IMG/VR virus record: IMGVR_UViG_3300036832_000301
Span: 1 to 59,931 of that record
Source: a virus
DNA length: 59,931 bases
Reading direction: 5' to 3' (one strand)
The notes beneath the pieces were generated by a model. That model saw only the letters and a list, made by a program, of their open reading frames with translations. It was not told the origin of the DNA and did no database searches. Position 1 is the first letter of the stretch. The number at the start of each line of letters is the position of its first letter. Below, piece after piece: positions 1,361 through 59,760 of this stretch. A program made the position numbers and the translations under genes.

Positions 1361-1829
1361 AGGCAACCCCGGCAAGCAACGTCTGAACGATAGGGAGCCG
1401 GAACCGACCGGGCCATGCAAGCGACCCGCCTTCCTGACGGGCGCTGCGGCTGAGGAGTGGGAACGGGCGTGCGCAGCGATGCCGCCGGGCTTCTACACCG
1501 CCGCCGACATCCCGGTGCTGACCGTCTATTCGCTTTCATGGGTTCAATACCGAAACGCCCTGGCGCAGGTCGGGCGCGAGGGCATGACGCAGAAGACCGT
1601 GCTCGGCCACGACAAGACCCACCCGGCAGTGAACATCTCGCTCAAGCACGCCGAGGTGATCCTGCGCACGGCGGACCGGCTGGGCATGAGCCCGGCGGCC
1701 AGGGCGCGGCTGGAAATGCCGGAAGAAAACGCCGAGCAGGGCAAGTTCGCCGGTCTGTTCGGCGGAAAGCCGCTGCGGCTCGCAATCTCCAACGAGCCGA
1801 GCTCGTCTGCGCGTTCGTCGAAAGGCTGA
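1314..1829 (+). CDS. terS: terminase small subunit (P27 family)
   Basis: 171 aa. It starts at an internal ATG inside the methylase gene and opens with a proline/lysine-rich stretch (PPPKPTKLK..GNPGK) typical of P27-type small terminases, which recognise the packaging site and recruit the large subunit. The C-terminus contains FAGLFGGK, close to the usual family end. The large terminase frame overlaps its last part in the -1 frame. Confidence is good from the N-terminal signature, length and position. Confidence 0.85.
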   Translation: MQPGPPPKPTKLKRLEGNPGKQRLNDREPEPTGPCKRPAFLTGAAAEEWERACAAMPPGFYTAADIPVLTVYSLSWVQYRNALAQVGREGMTQKTVLGHDKTHPAVNISLKHAEVILRTADRLGMSPAARARLEMPEENAEQGKFAGLFGGKPLRLAISNEPSSSARSSKG

Positions 1830-3322
1830 CCGTCCCGTCAGGCGAAGGTGCGGGCGGCCCGATCAAGCTGCGGCCCTGGCAGCGCCGGTTCATCATCGAC
1901 GTCTATGCGCCGCAGTACGAGGACGGGCTGCGGCTGGTGCGCCGGGCGATCTTTTCGCTGGGGAGGAAGAATGGGAAGACCCTTCTGGCGGCGGCGCTGG
2001 TGCTGGTTCACCTCGTCGGCCCCGAAGCCGAGCGGAACGGTGAGATTTATTCCGCCGCCAACGACCGGGAGCAGGCTGGGCAGGTCTTCAAGATGGCCCG
2101 GCAGATGGTCGAGGCCGAGCCCGAGCTCGTGGCGCGGCTGCGGGTGGTCCCGTCGACCAAGACCATCGCCTGTTACGGCAACGGCAGTTTCTACCGGGCG
2201 CTGAGCGCCGAGAGCGGCACCAAGCACGGGCTCAACCCGACCTTCGTGATCTTCGACGAGCTCGCGCAGGCCAGGAACCGCGACCTGTACGATGTGCTCG
2301 ACACGTCGATGTCGGCGCGGGCCGAGCCGCTGTTCCTGGCGATCAGCACGCAGAGCAACGACCCGGAGCACATCCTGTCGAAGCTGATCGACGACGGGCT
2401 GAGCGGCGCGGACCCGACCACGGTCTGCCACTTGTACGCCGCGCCGGAAGACGCCGAGCTCGACGACGAGTCGGCGTGGTATGCGGCCAACCCGGCGCTC
2501 GGCGACTTCCGTTCGCTGGATGAGCTCGCGACGGCGATGGCGAAGGCGAAGCGGCTTCCGGCCGAGGAGCCGAAAGTCAGGAACCTATATCTCAACCAGC
2601 GGGTCGATCCGACATCGACGCTGATCAGCCGCACCGACTGGCTTGCCTGCAAGGGCGAGGCGAAATGGGAGCCGGGCGAGAAGGTCTATCTGGCGCTCGA
2701 CCTGTCGGCGAAGACCGACCTGACCGCATTGGTTGGGGTGAGTGTCGAGGGTGGCAGCCGGGTCGCGGCGTGGTTCTGGAAACCCGCCGACTATCTGGCC
2801 GACCATGAGCGCCGCGACCGGGTGCCTTACAGCCTGTGGGAGAAACAGGGGCACCTGATCGCCATCCCTGGCCGGTCGATCCATCCGCGAGTGATCGCGC
2901 AGAAGATCGCCGAGCTCGTCAACGAGTACGACGTCGTCGGGCTGGCTTACGACCGGTGGGGTATTCAGAACCTGTTACGCGAGTTCGACGGGGTCGACCT
3001 GCAAGCCCACGACGCCCGCGAGGAGGGCGACGGGCTGCGGCTGGTCTCCTGGGGCCAGGGCTTCAAGGATATGTCCCCGGCGGTCGACGCGCTGGAAACG
3101 GCGGTGCTGCACGAGACGCTGATCCACAACGGCAATCCGGTGCTGACGTGGAACATGGGCAACGCGGTGGTGGTCACCGACCCGGCGGGCGGGCGCAAGC
3201 TGGATAAGACCAAGGTTCGGTTCCGGATCGACGGCGCGGTCGCCCTGGCGATGGCGCTCGGACTCAAGGATCGCGAGCGCGGTCCGGAGGGCGAGAAAGA
3301 ATACCGGATGCTGTTCCTGTGA
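1538..3322 (+). CDS. terL: terminase large subunit
   Basis: DNA-packaging ATPase and nuclease. Walker A GRKNGKT is at about residues 142-148 of the frame as given, Walker B FVIFDE near 236-241, and a nuclease-type acidic motif LALDLSAKTD near 387. The start is uncertain. Family homology appears to begin only around nt 1790 (RAELVCAFVERL), yet the frame holds no ATG, GTG or TTG between 1541 and that point. The only upstream ATG is 1538, deep inside terS, and it gives a low-quality Arg/Gly/Pro-rich N-terminus. A CTG at 1826 overlaps the terS stop. Frameshifting from terS, a rare start codon or a sequence error are all possible. Confidence 0.9.
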   Translation: MGSIPKRPGAGRARGHDAEDRARPRQDPPGSEHLAQARRGDPAHGGPAGHEPGGQGAAGNAGRKRRAGQVRRSVRRKAAAARNLQRAELVCAFVERLTVPSGEGAGGPIKLRPWQRRFIIDVYAPQYEDGLRLVRRAIFSLGRKNGKTLLAAALVLVHLVGPEAERNGEIYSAANDREQAGQVFKMARQMVEAEPELVARLRVVPSTKTIACYGNGSFYRALSAESGTKHGLNPTFVIFDELAQARNRDLYDVLDTSMSARAEPLFLAISTQSNDPEHILSKLIDDGLSGADPTTVCHLYAAPEDAELDDESAWYAANPALGDFRSLDELATAMAKAKRLPAEEPKVRNLYLNQRVDPTSTLISRTDWLACKGEAKWEPGEKVYLALDLSAKTDLTALVGVSVEGGSRVAAWFWKPADYLADHERRDRVPYSLWEKQGHLIAIPGRSIHPRVIAQKIAELVNEYDVVGLAYDRWGIQNLLREFDGVDLQAHDAREEGDGLRLVSWGQGFKDMSPAVDALETAVLHETLIHNGNPVLTWNMGNAVVVTDPAGGRKLDKTKVRFRIDGAVALAMALGLKDRERGPEGEKEYRMLFL

Positions 3323-5419: not shown

Positions 5420-5443
5420 ATCTAGCTCCGTTTGTTGAGCCGT

Positions 5444-5472
5444 GTGTACGCGACTGCGTGCAGCGATGCAAA
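5444..5472 (-). promoter_or_regulatory. promoter of the shared CTTGCA-N17 family
   Basis: On the minus strand, TTTGCA (-35) is followed by a 17-bp spacer with the TGCA core and GTACAC (-10). An AGAAT-type box lies upstream but 5 bp further away than in the best copies. It would drive the three-gene minus island 5419-4688. Confidence 0.6.
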
Positions 5473-5527
5473 CATTTTCGCACACTATCGCTGCGACATT
5501 CTGACATCACAACTAGGGAGGCTCGCG

Positions 5528-7534
5528 ATGCACCGTGCATATGCGATGCTCGAAGTGCGCGCCGTCGACGACGGCCAGGATCAGCGCACCTTCGAGGGTT
5601 GGGCGACCACGCCCACGCCGGATCGTCTCGGCGATGTCGTCGAGCCGAAGGGCGCGAAGTTCAAAAACCCGCTGCCGTTGCTGCACCAGCACAACAGCGA
5701 CGAGCCCATCGGTCAGGTGCGGCTCAAGAAGGCGACCGACGAAGGCATCGCCTTTGTCGCGACCATTCCCAGGATCGACCAGCCCGGCCCGCTCAAGGAC
5801 CGGGTCGACACCGCCTGGGGCGAGATCAAGAGCGGGCTGGTCCGCGCGGTGAGCATCGGCTTCCGGGTGCTGCAAGACGGCATGGAAAGCATCGCCGGGA
5901 GCGGCGGCATCCGGTTCACCGCGATCGAGATCATGGAGCTCTCGGCGGTCAGCATTCCGGCGAACGCCGACGCCACCATCACCAACATCAAATCCTTCGA
6001 CATCGGGCTCAAGGCCGCGTCTGGCGCACCCGTTGTGAAGCTAAACCCCCCCGGCGTCTCGGGCTCCCCACAACTCAGGACACAAAGGAGCGCGGCGATG
6101 CCCCGCACCGTCAGTCAACAAATCGAAGACTTCAACGCCACCCGCGCCGCCAAGGCTGCGCGCATGGGCGTGATCATGGGCGAGTCGAGCGAGCGCAGTG
6201 AAACGCTCGATGCCTCCGAGACCGAGGAATACGACACGCTCGACGCCGAGGTGACGTCCATCGACAACCACCTCAAGCGCCTGCATTCGCTGGAAAAGGC
6301 GCAGGCCGGGACAGCGGCTCCGGTGATCCGCGCTGGCGTGGAAGCCGGTCGGCCCGCGCTGATCATCGGCGATGGCCTGGGCGCATCTGGCGGCGGTGGT
6401 GGCAGCGCGCGGATCGAGCCGGTGGTGCGCTCGCTTGAGCGGATCGACCCGTCGCTGCACGTCGCCCGGCTTGCTAAGTGCATCGTGCTTGGCCGCATGT
6501 CGCGCGGTGAAAAGAAGGCGTCGGAGTTCGCCTCCGAAATGTATCCCAACGACGGCTTGCTTCCGGACATGATCAAGGCGGTCGTCGCGGGTGGTACGGC
6601 GACCGATCCGACCTGGGCTGGCCCGCTGGTCGGCCCCGCTGGGCTCGCCTTTGCGGCGTTCCTCGAATTCCTTCGTCCGACGACGATCATCGGGCGGTTC
6701 GGGAACAACGGTGTCCCGGCGTTGCAGGCGGTTCCGTTCCGCACGCCTCTCGGCGCGCAGACCACCGGCGGCGCGGGTTACTGGGTTGGTGAGGGCAAGG
6801 CCAAGCCGCTGACCAAGTTCGACTTCTCGCGCACGCAACTGACTGAGCTCAAGGTGGCGAACATCGCGGTCGCGACCAAGGAGCTCATTCGGGACAGCAG
6901 CCCGAGCGCCGATCAATTGATCCGCAACGGGCTGGTGGCGGCTCTGCGCGAGCGGCTCGACATCGACTTCATCACCCCGGCGAAAGCTGCGGTGGCTGGG
7001 GTCAGCCCGGCGTCGATCACCAACGGTGTCGCCGGTATCCCGTCGAGCGGCACGGATGCGGCGGCGGTGCGCGCCGACATCGCGGCGGCGTTCGCAGCTT
7101 ACCGGGCGGGCAACAACCCGCTCAGCGGCGGCGTCTGGATCATGCCGACCAACCTCGCGCTGCAACTGTCCCTGATGGTGACGATCACGGGTGCGCCGGA
7201 ATTCCCTGGCGTGACCCCGAACGGTGGCTCGTTCGCCGGGTTCCCGGTGATCGCCAGCGACTACGTCCCCGCCGGGGACGTCGTGCTGGTCAACGCGCCG
7301 CTGATCTATCTCGCCGACGAGGGCGGGTTCGGCGTCGCGATGTCGGAAGAAGCGTCGCTCGAAATGGTCGACAACCCGGTCGGCGATGCGCACGCAGGCA
7401 CCGGCCCGGCGACCGGCATGGTCTCAATGTTCCAGACCAATTCGGTCGCCATCCTGGCCGAGCGGACGATCAACTGGGTCAAGGCACGGGCGACGGCTGT
7501 GGTCCTGCTGACCGGCGTGGCGTGGGCCGTCTAA
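5528..7534 (+). CDS. fused prohead protease and HK97-type major capsid protein
   Basis: 668 aa. Residues 1-175 are an HK97-type prohead protease (U35): LHQHN near residues 52-56 gives the catalytic His, and ELSAVSIPAN near 138-147 holds the Ser region. Residues from about 191 hold a helical delta/scaffold-like part, then an HK97 capsid domain ending with GFGVAMSEEASL and an insertion-type C-terminus. An AGGGAGG site precedes the ATG. A second strong site (AAAGGAG) precedes an in-frame ATG at 6098 (Met191), so an independent capsid polypeptide could be made from the same frame. Confidence 0.9.
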   Translation: MHRAYAMLEVRAVDDGQDQRTFEGWATTPTPDRLGDVVEPKGAKFKNPLPLLHQHNSDEPIGQVRLKKATDEGIAFVATIPRIDQPGPLKDRVDTAWGEIKSGLVRAVSIGFRVLQDGMESIAGSGGIRFTAIEIMELSAVSIPANADATITNIKSFDIGLKAASGAPVVKLNPPGVSGSPQLRTQRSAAMPRTVSQQIEDFNATRAAKAARMGVIMGESSERSETLDASETEEYDTLDAEVTSIDNHLKRLHSLEKAQAGTAAPVIRAGVEAGRPALIIGDGLGASGGGGGSARIEPVVRSLERIDPSLHVARLAKCIVLGRMSRGEKKASEFASEMYPNDGLLPDMIKAVVAGGTATDPTWAGPLVGPAGLAFAAFLEFLRPTTIIGRFGNNGVPALQAVPFRTPLGAQTTGGAGYWVGEGKAKPLTKFDFSRTQLTELKVANIAVATKELIRDSSPSADQLIRNGLVAALRERLDIDFITPAKAAVAGVSPASITNGVAGIPSSGTDAAAVRADIAAAFAAYRAGNNPLSGGVWIMPTNLALQLSLMVTITGAPEFPGVTPNGGSFAGFPVIASDYVPAGDVVLVNAPLIYLADEGGFGVAMSEEASLEMVDNPVGDAHAGTGPATGMVSMFQTNSVAILAERTINWVKARATAVVLLTGVAWAV

Positions 7535-17583: not shown

Positions 17584-20528
17584 CGGCGGCGGTCGGCTTC
17601 ATCGCGCTTGCCATCGTCGCCGCGCCGGTCGCCGGGGCATTGCTGGCGGGCGCGAGTCTGGGGACGGCGGCGATAGTCGGCGCGGGTGCGATCACCGGCT
17701 TCGGCGCGACGTTGGTCGGCGGGGCCGGGATCGCGGCGGCAATTTCAGCATGGGGGACCATCGCCGTTGGCGCGTCCATTGCCCTGTCGCCCTCGGCCAA
17801 GAAGGTCGGCCAGGGCGCAGCCGGGACGCAGGTCAATTTCCAGGCCGATCCAAATTCGGGCATCCCGTTCTCGCTCGGGCGCACCGGCACGGCGGGCAAG
17901 ATCATCCACGCCAACACGACCGGCCAAGCCGACAAGAACAGCCACCTTTATTATCTGATCGCGCTCTCTGGCGGGGTGATCTCTGGCGTCGAAAGCTTGT
18001 CCTGCAGCGGGCAGCTTTGCACGATGGACGGCGACGGCAACGCCAGCGGCGGCAACATCACCGGACCGTCCCCTTATGGCGGGGCGATGGACATCCGCTG
18101 GACCTACGGCTTCAAGCCCGAGCCCGCCTATATGCAGCCGCCGGGCTTCGATCCGGCGCTCGCGCCCGAGTGGACATCCGATCACCTGACCTCGGGCGTG
18201 GCCTGCGCGTGGTGGTCGCTGATCTATTCGTCGAGCGCCTTCCCGTCAGGCATCCCGTCGCCGATGTTCGTGGTGCGCGGCCCGCCGGTTTACGACCCGC
18301 GCCAGGACAGCACGGTCGGCGGCGGCTCGGGTCCGCAGCGGTGGGACGACGAGTCGACGTGGTCCTATGCCGGGTATGACAACCCGTTCCTGCAAGGGCT
18401 GACCTACTGCATCGGTCGGCGCGACAACGGCAAGCTCACCTTCGGGATCGGCGCACCGATCCAGGCGCTCGATCTCGAAGCCTTCGCCGAAGGTGCCGGG
18501 GTTTGCGAAAGCAACGCCTGGACGGTCGGCGGCGAGGTGCTGTCGACCGATACGAAGTGGGATGCGCTGGCCTCGATCCTGCAAGCGGGCGGCGGCGAAC
18601 CGATCCGGCTCGGCGGGATGATCTCTTGCGTCGTGCGCACCCCGCGCGTGGTGGTCGCCAGCCTGACCGGCCAGGACATCGTCGGCGACGCGGCGATCAC
18701 CGGCAGCAAGGGCCGCAAGGATCGCTTCAATCAGATCATCCCCAGCTATCGCAGCGAGGCGAACGGCTGGCAGATGGTGCCCGGCGGCGCGGTGACAGTC
18801 GACGAGTACGTCACGGCGGACGGCGAACTGCGCAGCAAGGGCGGCAGCTATGCGCTGGTGCAGGACGCCAAGCAGGCCGCCCAGCTTGCGGCGTATGACA
18901 TCGTCGACGCGCGTGAATTCGAGCCGGTGACCCTGCCGGTCGGCCCCAGGTTCGGCGCGCTGGTGCCTGGGGATGTGATCTCGATCACCGAACCTGAATT
19001 CGGCATGAGCGGCCAGGAGCTCATGATCGAGACCCGGCAGATCGACCCGACGACCGGGATGGTTACGCTCACCTGTCGATCCGAGACGCCGTCGAAACAC
19101 GCCTACGCGCTCGGGCAGACGCCGAACCCGCCGCCGATCCCCGGCTTGCAGCCGGTCGACCCGACCAAGGTGTTCGATCCGGACGCAGGCTCATGGACCG
19201 CCTGGGGCGGCATTCTCTCGGGCAGCGACGGGAGCCAAATCCCGGCCATCGTGGTCACCGGCCACGTCAACGATCCGAACGTCTCGAATGTGCTGGTCGA
19301 CATCCGGCTTGAGCTCGACGCCACGCCGACCTTCGGCGACTGGATGACCACCACGGCCCCGGCGAACGCCACGCGGATCGAGATCAGGGCGGTGATCCCC
19401 GGCGCGACCTACAACGTGCGGGTCCGCTACAAGACGGTGCGGCAAGTCGAGGGGATCACCGGGCTCGATCTCGGGCTGGTGACGGTGGGGACGCTGATCT
19501 CAGGCGGCGTCACCACCATCGGCGGGCAGACCCCCGAGGAACTGGTTCAGCAGCTTAACGACACCACCGCGCTCGGGCAGCAGACGTCGGATCAGGCGAA
19601 CCAGACCGCGCAAGACCTGCTGCCGGTGTCGGACAGCGCCAACTATTCGAAGACCCGGATCGACCTGATCGGCTCGCTCCTGCCGAACGGCTCGACGTTC
19701 CAGATGTCCGACACGACGTTGTTCGCCGACGCGTCGACGACCTGGGGCACCTACCGGACCAGCCTGCAAAGCCATGTCGACAACAACACCTCGGCGATCA
19801 CCACCGAGCAGACGGCGCGGGTCAACGGCGACCAAGCCAACGCGACGTCGATCACCAACCTGTCGACAACCGTCAACGGCAACACCGCCTCGATTACAAC
19901 CCTGCAAACATCGGTGAACGGGCTCAACGCGCAGTACGTGCTTTCGGTGAACGCGGGCGGTCAGGTCGCCGGAATGAAGCTGGCGGCGGGCGGCTCTGGC
20001 GGATCGAGCATGGCGTTTATCGCCAGTCAAATCGGGTTCTCGGACGGCACCTCGAATGTGTTCCCGCTGGCGGTGGTCGGCGGCAAGGTGATCGCCACCA
20101 ACTTCCAGGCCGACGACATCAAAGCCAACACGATCACCGCGAACATGATCATCGGCGGGGCGGTGACGGCGACTGGGATTACCAGCGCAGGGGCGCAATC
20201 CAATCCGGTCGGGTCGGAAGTCACCGACATGACGTTCAATTACAACAGCTATGGCGGCGACCACCTGTTCGACATCTACGGCGAGCTCGGCACGTCGACG
20301 AGCTCCGCAGCCGGGACGGTTTTCACCCTCTATTGCGACGGCGGGGCGATCACCTCGGGGGCTGTCTATTGCCCTCCCAACTGGGGCGCGAACGGCGTCA
20401 GCTTCCCATTCGCCCACCGGCCCGGCGCGGGCGGGCACTCCTATCGGCTCGCCCATACCGGCACCACCGGCAGCGGCCCATCGCAGGTCAACCGCACGAC
20501 CGTCGTGCTGACCGAGCTCAAGAAATAA
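17556..20528 (+). CDS. tail tip / host-specificity protein (J-like)
   Basis: 990 aa from ATG 17556 (GTG 17571 is also possible). A hydrophobic N-terminal 80 residues (VGFIALAIVAAPVAGALLAG) precede NSGIPFSLGRTGTAGKIIH, and the central part is like lambda gpJ / GTA gp15 central hubs. Fibronectin-like and coiled segments follow (about 590-800), and a C-terminal beta domain. It determines host binding and forms the tail tip. The start overlaps the peptidase gene. Confidence 0.8.
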   Translation: MERDPVAKVAAAVGFIALAIVAAPVAGALLAGASLGTAAIVGAGAITGFGATLVGGAGIAAAISAWGTIAVGASIALSPSAKKVGQGAAGTQVNFQADPNSGIPFSLGRTGTAGKIIHANTTGQADKNSHLYYLIALSGGVISGVESLSCSGQLCTMDGDGNASGGNITGPSPYGGAMDIRWTYGFKPEPAYMQPPGFDPALAPEWTSDHLTSGVACAWWSLIYSSSAFPSGIPSPMFVVRGPPVYDPRQDSTVGGGSGPQRWDDESTWSYAGYDNPFLQGLTYCIGRRDNGKLTFGIGAPIQALDLEAFAEGAGVCESNAWTVGGEVLSTDTKWDALASILQAGGGEPIRLGGMISCVVRTPRVVVASLTGQDIVGDAAITGSKGRKDRFNQIIPSYRSEANGWQMVPGGAVTVDEYVTADGELRSKGGSYALVQDAKQAAQLAAYDIVDAREFEPVTLPVGPRFGALVPGDVISITEPEFGMSGQELMIETRQIDPTTGMVTLTCRSETPSKHAYALGQTPNPPPIPGLQPVDPTKVFDPDAGSWTAWGGILSGSDGSQIPAIVVTGHVNDPNVSNVLVDIRLELDATPTFGDWMTTTAPANATRIEIRAVIPGATYNVRVRYKTVRQVEGITGLDLGLVTVGTLISGGVTTIGGQTPEELVQQLNDTTALGQQTSDQANQTAQDLLPVSDSANYSKTRIDLIGSLLPNGSTFQMSDTTLFADASTTWGTYRTSLQSHVDNNTSAITTEQTARVNGDQANATSITNLSTTVNGNTASITTLQTSVNGLNAQYVLSVNAGGQVAGMKLAAGGSGGSSMAFIASQIGFSDGTSNVFPLAVVGGKVIATNFQADDIKANTITANMIIGGAVTATGITSAGAQSNPVGSEVTDMTFNYNSYGGDHLFDIYGELGTSTSSAAGTVFTLYCDGGAITSGAVYCPPNWGANGVSFPFAHRPGAGGHSYRLAHTGTTGSGPSQVNRTTVVLTELKK

Positions 20529-46997: not shown

Positions 46998-47206
46998 GCG
47001 CTAATCCGCCCGCCGGTGCCGCCAAAAGCGCGCTGCGAATGCTCGTCACAGTATGGCCGCCGCCCGGCTCGACCGCAGACCACCATGGTCGCCCCAGACC
47101 CGCCGAGCGGCCACTGACAGACGCAACGACCGGCGGCTTCGATAAACGGCACCCCGGCGACAGCCGAAGGTTCCGACAGGGCTGGGGCCGGATGCAGCGG
47201 TTTCAT
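46994..47206 (-). CDS. GcrA C-terminal-like protein
   Basis: 70 aa. RCVCQWPLGGSGATMVVCGRAGRRPYCDEHSQRAF carries the Cys/His pattern (C-WP-G...CG....PYC..H) of the C-terminus of GcrA, the alphaproteobacterial cell-cycle transcription factor, without its N-terminal DNA-binding domain. Could interact with RNA polymerase or compete with host GcrA (inference). Confidence 0.7.
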   Translation of the reverse strand: MKPLHPAPALSEPSAVAGVPFIEAAGRCVCQWPLGGSGATMVVCGRAGRRPYCDEHSQRAFGGTGGRISA

Positions 47207-54281: not shown

Positions 54282-54426
54282 CTATAAGGGTGCGGTCGGG
54301 TGCCGCACCCCCAGCCGCGCCCTACCAGCCGAACTTGGTCCCTTTTTGCAGAACCGTCATCGCGCAGCCTGGAGACGGGTGCTATCTTGCCGTGTACCTG
54401 TTCAACCTTGGCTAGTGGGGCTCTCC

Positions 54427-54951
54427 GTGCTGCACCTTGCAAAGTCGCTCGCCGTCACGGCGGCGGTCGCTGTCCTGGCTTTCGCCGTTCCCACCGCTGC
54501 CGCGACATTCCTCGATGAAGCTGGCCCGGCTTCGGACGGCTCGCTGTCGTGGGACCTGGGGAACGACGGCGGTATCCCGCTCGGCGCATTCACCGACGAC
54601 TTCATGCTGACGTTGCCCGCGACCGGCTTCACCGCCGCCGGGGTCGAGGCGACCTTCACGTCGAGCACCAACGATCTCACCTTCTCGCTGGTCACGCTGG
54701 GCGGCCTAAAATTCAAGCTGTTCGATGAGCCGAGCGAGCACCTCGGCACGTTCCCCGCGCATATCTTCGCTGGCGGCCCGATCCTGCTCGAAGTGAAAGG
54801 CACCAGCCCCGGCCCGGCGGCCAGCTACGACGGGCATGTGACGTTCTCGCCGGTCGCGGTTCCTGAGCCGGTCACTTGGGCGCTGATGGTCTTCGGTTTC
54901 GGCGCGGCTGGCGCGATGCTTCGGCGTCGGCGCTCGACCGTCTCGGCCTAG
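54427..54951 (+). CDS. secreted protein with PEPxxWA-type C-terminal sorting signal
   Basis: 174 aa from GTG 54427 (a GTG at 54415 is possible). A signal peptide (LAKSLAVTAAVAVLAFAVPTAAA) is followed by a beta-rich passenger and a C-terminal tripartite sorting signal: VPEPVTWALMVFGFG, a hydrophobic helix and RRRR. This is the PEP-CTERM/exosortase signal typical of sphingomonad and Bradyrhizobium-type secreted proteins, in place of a phage function. It would be processed by a host exosortase. Probably a moron that alters the host surface. Confidence 0.85.
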   Translation: MLHLAKSLAVTAAVAVLAFAVPTAAATFLDEAGPASDGSLSWDLGNDGGIPLGAFTDDFMLTLPATGFTAAGVEATFTSSTNDLTFSLVTLGGLKFKLFDEPSEHLGTFPAHIFAGGPILLEVKGTSPGPAASYDGHVTFSPVAVPEPVTWALMVFGFGAAGAMLRRRRSTVSA

Positions 54952-55400
54952 GCGTCGGCACCCGCCATAGCGACGCGGATGCGGTGAAGGACGAACCAAG
55001 CCGACTTCTGAGTGATGCCGGTCGCGCGGGCCAGCTCGTAGCTCGAAATGCCGTTCTTGCAGTTGGCAACGCTCCAGATCGCGACGAACCACACGTCCAG
55101 CGGAAGCGCGCTGTCCTCGAAGATGGAGCCGGTCTTGACCGTGAACTGGCGCTTGCAGACCTTGCCCTCGGCGTCCTTGGCCTTGCACTCGAAAAGGCGG
55201 CGCGGGGTTTCAACGCCGGTCTTGCGGTTCTTGCTGGTCGCCACGAAATAGCGAACCTCGCCGCAGACGCCGCAGGCCGGGCAATGAACGCCATCTGGCC
55301 AACGCAGCTTTACAGCCAGGTCGTGGGTGCGCTCCGCGTCGGCGAAATACCGCACCGCTTCCATCAGCGTCTTGGGTTGGGCGGGGGCTGCGGTTTCCAT
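54948..55400 (-). pseudogene. truncated IS1595-type transposase (zinc ribbon and HTH only)
   Basis: 150 aa. VHCPACGVCGEVRYF..FECKAKD..CKRQFTVKTGSIFEDSALPLDVWFVAIWSVANCKNGISSYELARATGITQKSAWFVLHRIRVAM is the N-terminal part of an IS1595/ISXO2-type transposase. The DDE catalytic domain that should follow is absent and the protein stops right after it. It may have been kept as a DNA-binding regulator. Converges with the PEP-CTERM gene, sharing 4 bp. Confidence 0.8.
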
Positions 55401-57040: not shown

Positions 57041-58118
57041 CCGAACCGGCCCAGCCTCACCCAACCACGACGAGCCACACCGTGCCCTGCCACGCCGAAC
57101 CCGGCCATGCCAGCCGCACCGCGCCGGGCCTAACCGTGCAACACCGCGCAACGCCTTGCCTGCCCAACCGAGCCTGACCGCGCCGGGCCATTCCAAGCCT
57201 TGCCTTGCCTGCCGCGCCGCGCCTGACCCGGAGCAACCCCGCCTGACCACGACGGGCCGCGCCACGCCAGCCAGACCTTGCCAAGCCGCACCCGGCTCGA
57301 CCTGACCTTGCCTCGCCTGCCTACCTCGCCAGGACACACCTAGCTCAGCCTCGCCAGCCCTGCCGCGCCCCACCTAACCTAGCCCTGCCAGCCAAGCCGT
57401 GCCACGCCATGACCTGCGTCGCCCTGCCTGCCATGCCGGGCCAAAACAGACCTGACCCCGCCTAGCTGAACCTCGCCATGCCTGCCACACCTTGCCATTC
57501 CAAACCGCGCCTGACCGCACCTTGCCGCGCCGCGCAATGCCTCGCCTGCCAAACCCCGCCTCGCCATGCCCAGCAGCACCGAGCCCCGCTGGGCCTAGCC
57601 TGCCGTGCCCTGCGTTGCCGTGCCTACCATGCCAGACCCCTGCCACGCCTGCCGCGCCGAGCCATGCCCAGCCCCACCGGACCGCGCGATGACACACCGG
57701 GCCTGCCATACCGCACCTTGCGACACCGAACCCCGACCCGCCTAAACAAGCCGTGCCTGCCGCGCCCTGCCCACGCTCGACCTTGCCACACCGCGCTCAG
57801 CCATGCCTGCCGCACCGGGCCGCGCCTCGCCAGACATCGCCATGCCGTGACCCGCCCTGCCAGCCATGCCCTGACCTGCCCCACGTCACCACGTCTGCCA
57901 TGCCGGGCCTGACTCTGCCTGACCCAGCCTCGCCCCACCATGCCTGCCGGGCCGGGCCAAGCCTTGCCTAGCCCTTCCGCGCCGAGCCATGCCAGCCAGA
58001 CCCTACCTGACCTCACATCGCCATGCCCTGCCACACCAAGCCCATCCCCGCCTCGCCTGCCTCACCTTGCTCTGCCTGACCCTGACACGCCTCGCCAAAC
58101 CCAATCTCGCCTCGGCTA
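57041..58118. repeat. degenerate pentanucleotide-periodic array (CCNNG-type)
   Basis: About 1.1 kb in which the dinucleotide CC recurs every 5 nt, most units fitting CCNNG (CCTTG, CCATG, CCGCG, CCACG, CCTCG), broken by 4-nt units CC(T/A)G. Such 4-nt slips occur at 57110, 57159, 57208, 57267, 57316, then for example 57545, 57599, 57648, 57702 and 57756, mostly 49 or 54 nt apart, giving a second-order period. The top strand is C-rich and G-poor. A 10-bp inverted repeat CCGAACCGGC (57041) / GCCGGTTCGG (58120) flanks it. Open frames inside it are by-products of the period; no gene is called. It separates convergent genes 56978 and 58116. Confidence 0.9.
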
Positions 58119-59391: not shown

Positions 59392-59442
59392 TGGTGTTGC
59401 AAGACCCTTGCACCCCTATAGGTATAGGCGGATAACTTGGTT

Positions 59443-59760
59443 ATGGGGCAGCGACCGCGCCCATCCGACCGGACGCCAGAGGTCGCGGCCTATCAGCGAT
59501 GGTACTGGACGCCGCGCTGGCGTCGTAAGTCGCACGATCAACTGATTGCGCATCCGTTCTGCGCCTACTGCCTGCGCGACGAAGGTGTGTTCACCGCCGC
59601 GACGATCTCCGATCACGTCATCCCGCATCGAGGTAACGCACATCTGTTCTGGCACGGCGAATTGCAGAGCTTGTGCAAGCCGCACCACGACGGCGATAAG
59701 CGGCGCGAGGAACAGATGATGCAGCCCGAGCGCTGCGATGCGGATGGATGGCCGGTGTGA
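59443..59760 (+). CDS. HNH endonuclease
   Basis: 105 aa from ATG 59443. HPFCAYCLRDEG, ATISDHVIPHRGNAHLFWHGELQSLCKPHHDGDK: paired Cys plus the D-H..N..H HNH core. HNH proteins next to terminase are part of packaging in many siphophages; the terminase module begins at the left edge of the window. Confidence 0.92.
   Translation: MGQRPRPSDRTPEVAAYQRWYWTPRWRRKSHDQLIAHPFCAYCLRDEGVFTAATISDHVIPHRGNAHLFWHGELQSLCKPHHDGDKRREEQMMQPERCDADGWPV

Follow-up and report, generated by a model that had tools for sequence, protein, structure and literature searches.

A temperate phage genome, recovered as an IMG/VR virus record (IMGVR_UViG_3300036832_000301; the whole stretch of 59,931 nucleotides is referred to here as the window), carries a PEP-CTERM gene, and the novelty lies in finding such a gene phage-borne and recurring in related phages at varied positions. 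We consider it fairly probable that this is an accessory (moron) gene of the phage, and that its product is a secreted FxDxF PEP-CTERM protein sorted by a host exosortase to the surface. The gene (54427..54951, plus strand), assigned from profile matches and homologues, encodes 174 AA and reads from a GTG at 54427 to a stop at 54951, with an in-frame GTG at 54415 as an alternative start.

Analysis of the protein with hmmscan gave 72.9 bits (3.4e-20, residues 9–168) for the FxDxF family PEP-CTERM profile NF038126, for which the curated cut-off is 50 bits, and positions 4–165 of the 165 in the model were covered, i.e. a full-length family match. The profiles NF035944 (PEPxxWA-CTERM; 41.3 bits, cut-off 35) and PF07589 (PEP-CTERM; 26.2 bits, cut-off 20.7) were likewise exceeded, and they mark a sorting signal at residues 146–169 (54862..54933, plus strand) consisting of a PEPVTWA motif, a hydrophobic helix and RRRR. 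The motif lies 29 residues before the stop and the end is arginine-rich, which is the C-terminal placement expected of exosortase substrates. Residues 1–25 (54427..54501, plus strand) resemble a signal peptide as judged from hydropathy and composition only, with hydropathy above 1.8 in 19-residue windows, a lysine at position 6 and VPTAAA at the end, and the segment is kept in kind in two phage homologues described below (in contigs G001 and L055). Between the two signals, residues 26–143 (54502..54855, plus strand) are predicted to form a beta-sandwich passenger; the AlphaFold2 model, built on an input alignment of 23 sequences, has 11 strands over residues 26–140 and a helix at 148–173 (mean pLDDT 76.8). 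Structure searches with the predicted fold returned generic beta-sandwiches only (Z <8), indicating no specific function, and the PADLOC defence-system models gave no match to the protein. The first-pass annotation had described a complete exosortase substrate, and we confirm a PEP-CTERM protein with a complete sorting signal, a signal-like N-terminus and a predicted beta-sandwich. The full-length family match, together with a 75%-identical phage homologue and a dN/dS of 0.27, places this call far beyond chance.

The same annotation had the gene encoded by a phage rather than by contaminating host DNA, and this is firmly supported. The window carries terminase, portal, tape measure, tail fibre, RecE, Erf, RuvC, primase/helicase and repressor-like genes, and among its landmarks, all on the plus strand, are the terminase large subunit (1457..3322; phrog_9, with a core identity of 85% in G001 and 83% in L055), a fused head protease/major head protein (5432..7534; phrog_617) and an integrase that marks a temperate phage (36634..38037; phrog_1). 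Further phage families follow to the right of the PEP-CTERM gene, including an HNH endonuclease at the right end (59437..59760, plus strand; phrog_2323), the counterpart of which in G001 and L055 adjoins the methyltransferase gene that stands at the left end of the window. The related phage contig G001 (IMGVR_UViG_3300036793_000011, 38.6 kb) is collinear with the window in inverted orientation, running from tail genes through terminase and across the join of the window's end and start to the replication and recombination genes, and this collinearity extends to both sides of the PEP-CTERM gene. Since G001 is collinear across the join and L055 has the same HNH–methyltransferase–terminase order, the window is a phage genome with arbitrarily placed ends, in the interior of which the PEP-CTERM gene lies. 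A tRNA-Cys prediction at 19106–19186 (minus strand) lies within the tail-fibre ORF and is possibly a false positive.

Full homologues of the protein occur in two related phages, G001 (75% identity) and L055 (52%), at sites other than that in the window. In G001 the gene stands between homologues of the window ORFs at 47039 and 46632 and runs against the replication genes, and in L055 it lies between terminase and head gene; the window and G001 copies both lie in the non-structural half. A third relative, G037, retains only the C-terminal end of a homologue (62%), directly ahead of the counterpart of window ORF 56430, close to the position of the window gene. In a fourth, G043, head and portal genes enclose a divergent PEP-CTERM ORF, which scores just below the cut-off for FxDxF (44.9 bits) and above it for PEPxxWA (36.2 bits). 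The remaining relatives, which include five contigs of 30–48 kb and are otherwise mostly short fragments, yielded no PEPxxWA signal. With this patchy presence among close relatives, many of whose contigs are fragments, and these differing positions, the gene behaves as a moron. Its dN/dS between window and G001, 0.27, compared with 0.21 for terminase and 0.27 for tail fibre, points to purifying selection. In a tree of moderate support, with the deep forks unresolved, the window and G001 proteins form a pair (90/76) and 20 chromosomal FxDxF proteins group together (92/99); the best chromosomal relative is the genomic L070 match.

The first-pass annotation had placed the gene beside shared-promoter genes, which our searches do not bear out: neither a consensus sigma-70 promoter nor a direct repeat resembling the shared promoter was found at the gene. 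A tentative leader or promoter stretch, GCTATCTTG followed by CTGTTCAACC, lies at 54381..54407 (plus strand), of which CTGTTCAACC is identical at the G001 copy in an alignment of these two sequences only. Downstream, a convergent ORF (54948..55400, minus strand) encodes an IS1595-type zinc-ribbon protein of 150 AA (PF12760, partial NF033547, phrog_25593) without most of the transposase domain. The end of this ORF overlaps the PEP-CTERM stop and might mark how the PEP-CTERM gene was inserted; nothing matching this ORF was seen next to the other PEP-CTERM copies. Further to the right, at 57080–58096, about 1 kb of degenerate GCC-rich repeats shows no convincing coding and comprises 13 irregularly spaced copies of a 56-nt unit with 61–73% identity to the reference.

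Neither the window nor G001 was found to encode an exosortase, and the protein would therefore have to rely on that of the host, as had been suggested. Such enzymes are present in 12 of 13 alphaproteobacterial genomes carrying related proteins (Caulobacterales, Sphingomonadales and others), and we infer a cognate exosortase in the host of the window phage. Most likely this host is an alphaproteobacterium. Terminase searches covering 385 alphaproteobacterial genomes, together with 40 relatives of the Phenylobacterium genome G019, turned up a single match, at 43%, and none that was close. In a shallow test, the patterns used retrieved no IMG/VR relative of two host exosortases. A plasmid record of Sphingomonas paeninsulae with a 42% identical FxDxF protein was considered and set aside as not being phage evidence.

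How might such a protein act? We propose that the host Sec machinery would export it, that the C-terminal helix would retain it in the inner membrane, and that the host exosortase would cut near the PEP and hand the passenger to the outer envelope or to exopolysaccharide, where it may coat or bind surface material of the cell. That it may change the surface of the lysogen, as the first-pass annotation proposed, is plausible. The likeliest benefit would be that additional phages are kept from adsorbing to the cell, whether infected or lysogenic, or that the matrix or adhesion of the cell is altered; receptor blocking specifically is only a proposal.

As to when the protein would be made, the gene sits inside the late head block in L055 and G043, so that it may just as well be expressed in the lytic phase as in lysogens. 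Receptor masking during lysis is accordingly a serious alternative, even if we regard it as rather unlikely: the product would be an envelope protein of the lytic phase, expressed along with the late genes and sorted by the host exosortase, that covers receptors on dying cells and on their debris and so spares progeny, with no conversion of the lysogen. The L055 copy, with terminase upstream, a ribosome-binding-site-like AGGAG before it and a hairpin after it, fits this, as do the G043 copy between head and portal genes and the L003 family of PEP-CTERM genes, found just after a major head gene in another phage. The window and G001 copies, however, reside in the non-structural half, and that of G001 is oriented against the replication genes.

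Alternatively, a host PEP-CTERM gene may have been captured by chance and be carried as a neutral passenger with no gain for the phage. Random capture would also be expected to produce patchy presence and variable position, and chromosomal FxDxF proteins are common in the likely hosts; yet dN/dS is 0.27 at a protein divergence of 25%, each full-length phage copy has kept both of its sorting signals, and the gene recurs in several related phages, all of which makes this improbable. Very improbable, in our judgement, is that the product is a decoy that saturates the host exosortase and lowers the display of host PEP-CTERM proteins, such as a receptor or matrix barrier. A complete sorting signal without a phage exosortase would suit this idea, as would the little passenger domain in some other viral PEP-CTERM ORFs, but a decoy would not need a folded passenger, and the predicted one is conserved between window and G001 (80% identity, against 68% for the sorting signal). 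Finally, host chromosomal contamination or mis-assembly of the viral contig hardly deserves credence: the FxDxF family is bacterial and missing from GenBank phages, but the phage genes on both flanks, the collinearity of G001 and the homologues within phage gene blocks of other contigs reject it as far as assembled contigs allow.

The first-pass annotation knew of no established phage example and suggested searching phage genomes for PEP-CTERM signals. Among 50,697 GenBank phages there was no match to the window protein, to a generic PEPxxWA tail (a short query, weak on its own) or to the small L004 protein described below, and searches of the open-licence literature brought up no account of a PEP-CTERM protein in a phage. 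IMG/VR, by comparison, yielded several in phage context. A strict PEPxxWA pattern retrieved 67 stretches, and in nearly all the motif lies 24–45 residues before the stop, a placement as expected of a real sorting signal; a PEPxxLALL-type pattern retrieved 32 more, most of which place the motif in the same way at the C-terminus and begin with a signal-like segment. Not all of these are phage genes, as such contigs can include host flanks. In phage context, the PEP-CTERM gene comes just after a major head gene (L003), follows RecE by 6 bases within a methyltransferase–Erf–RecE run (L021), adjoins an endolysin gene (L009 and L046) or lies near terminase (L024). It is possible, though we hold it only tentatively, that phages generally exploit host exosortases, several unrelated lineages having PEP-CTERM cargo with which the infected cell's envelope is decorated or changed; with similar caution, this cargo might comprise beta-sandwich passengers of the classical kind as well as small proteins of phage type encoded next to lysis genes.

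The viral contigs held other PEP-CTERM ORFs as well. Small PEPxxWA-CTERM proteins (~140 AA) in L004 (11186–11602), L009 (2548–2973), L046 (1380–1796) and L051 (12367–12675) have an N-terminal hydrophobic segment and a K/P/G-rich linker, and both of the two checked adjoin an endolysin gene. A family of ~170 AA with a PEPMSLALF-type C-terminus occurs in L189, where it is upstream of the terminase small subunit, and in L198, L207 and L208; the L208 copy had no NCBIfam match. On a 417 kb viral contig with a terminase match (L052), a PEPxxWA-CTERM ORF at 2376–2996 contains a His/Lys-rich region.

Compared with known systems, the window protein resembles the FxDxF proteins (NF038126) of Sphingomonas, Phenylobacterium and relatives in its full-length match, size, domain order and PEPxxWA signal. 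The bacterial members are chromosomal whereas the window gene is phage-borne, and the window protein is ~27–39% identical to the aligned chromosomal members and groups apart from them in the tree. With respect to function, superinfection exclusion by Ltp of Streptococcus phage TP-J34 is the best precedent. Ltp lipoproteins are prophage-encoded, surface-exposed and act in superinfection exclusion, and the likeness lies in a temperate-phage accessory gene with a product exported to the host surface (PMC3952083). Ltp, however, is anchored as a lipoprotein in a Gram-positive host and its exclusion is proven (PMC3952083), whereas exclusion by the window protein is proposed only, and no sequence relation is claimed. 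Floc-associated PEP-CTERM proteins, among them PepA (NF033554) and those of Zoogloea and Aquincola (PMC9850573), share the sorting-signal class of the window protein, but they are encoded by host genes with a role in floc formation. The PepA profile matches the C-terminal half of the window protein weakly, with 27.8 bits against a cut-off of 80.

Phage proteins known to remodel the host surface do so mostly via lipoprotein, membrane-protein or glycan-modifying routes, and the functions of PEP-CTERM proteins are largely unknown. Should our reading hold, exosortase sorting of a phage protein would constitute a new route of host-surface remodelling. It could also make PEP-CTERM proteins accessible through selectable phenotypes, and would tie prophages to the matrix of flocs and biofilms.
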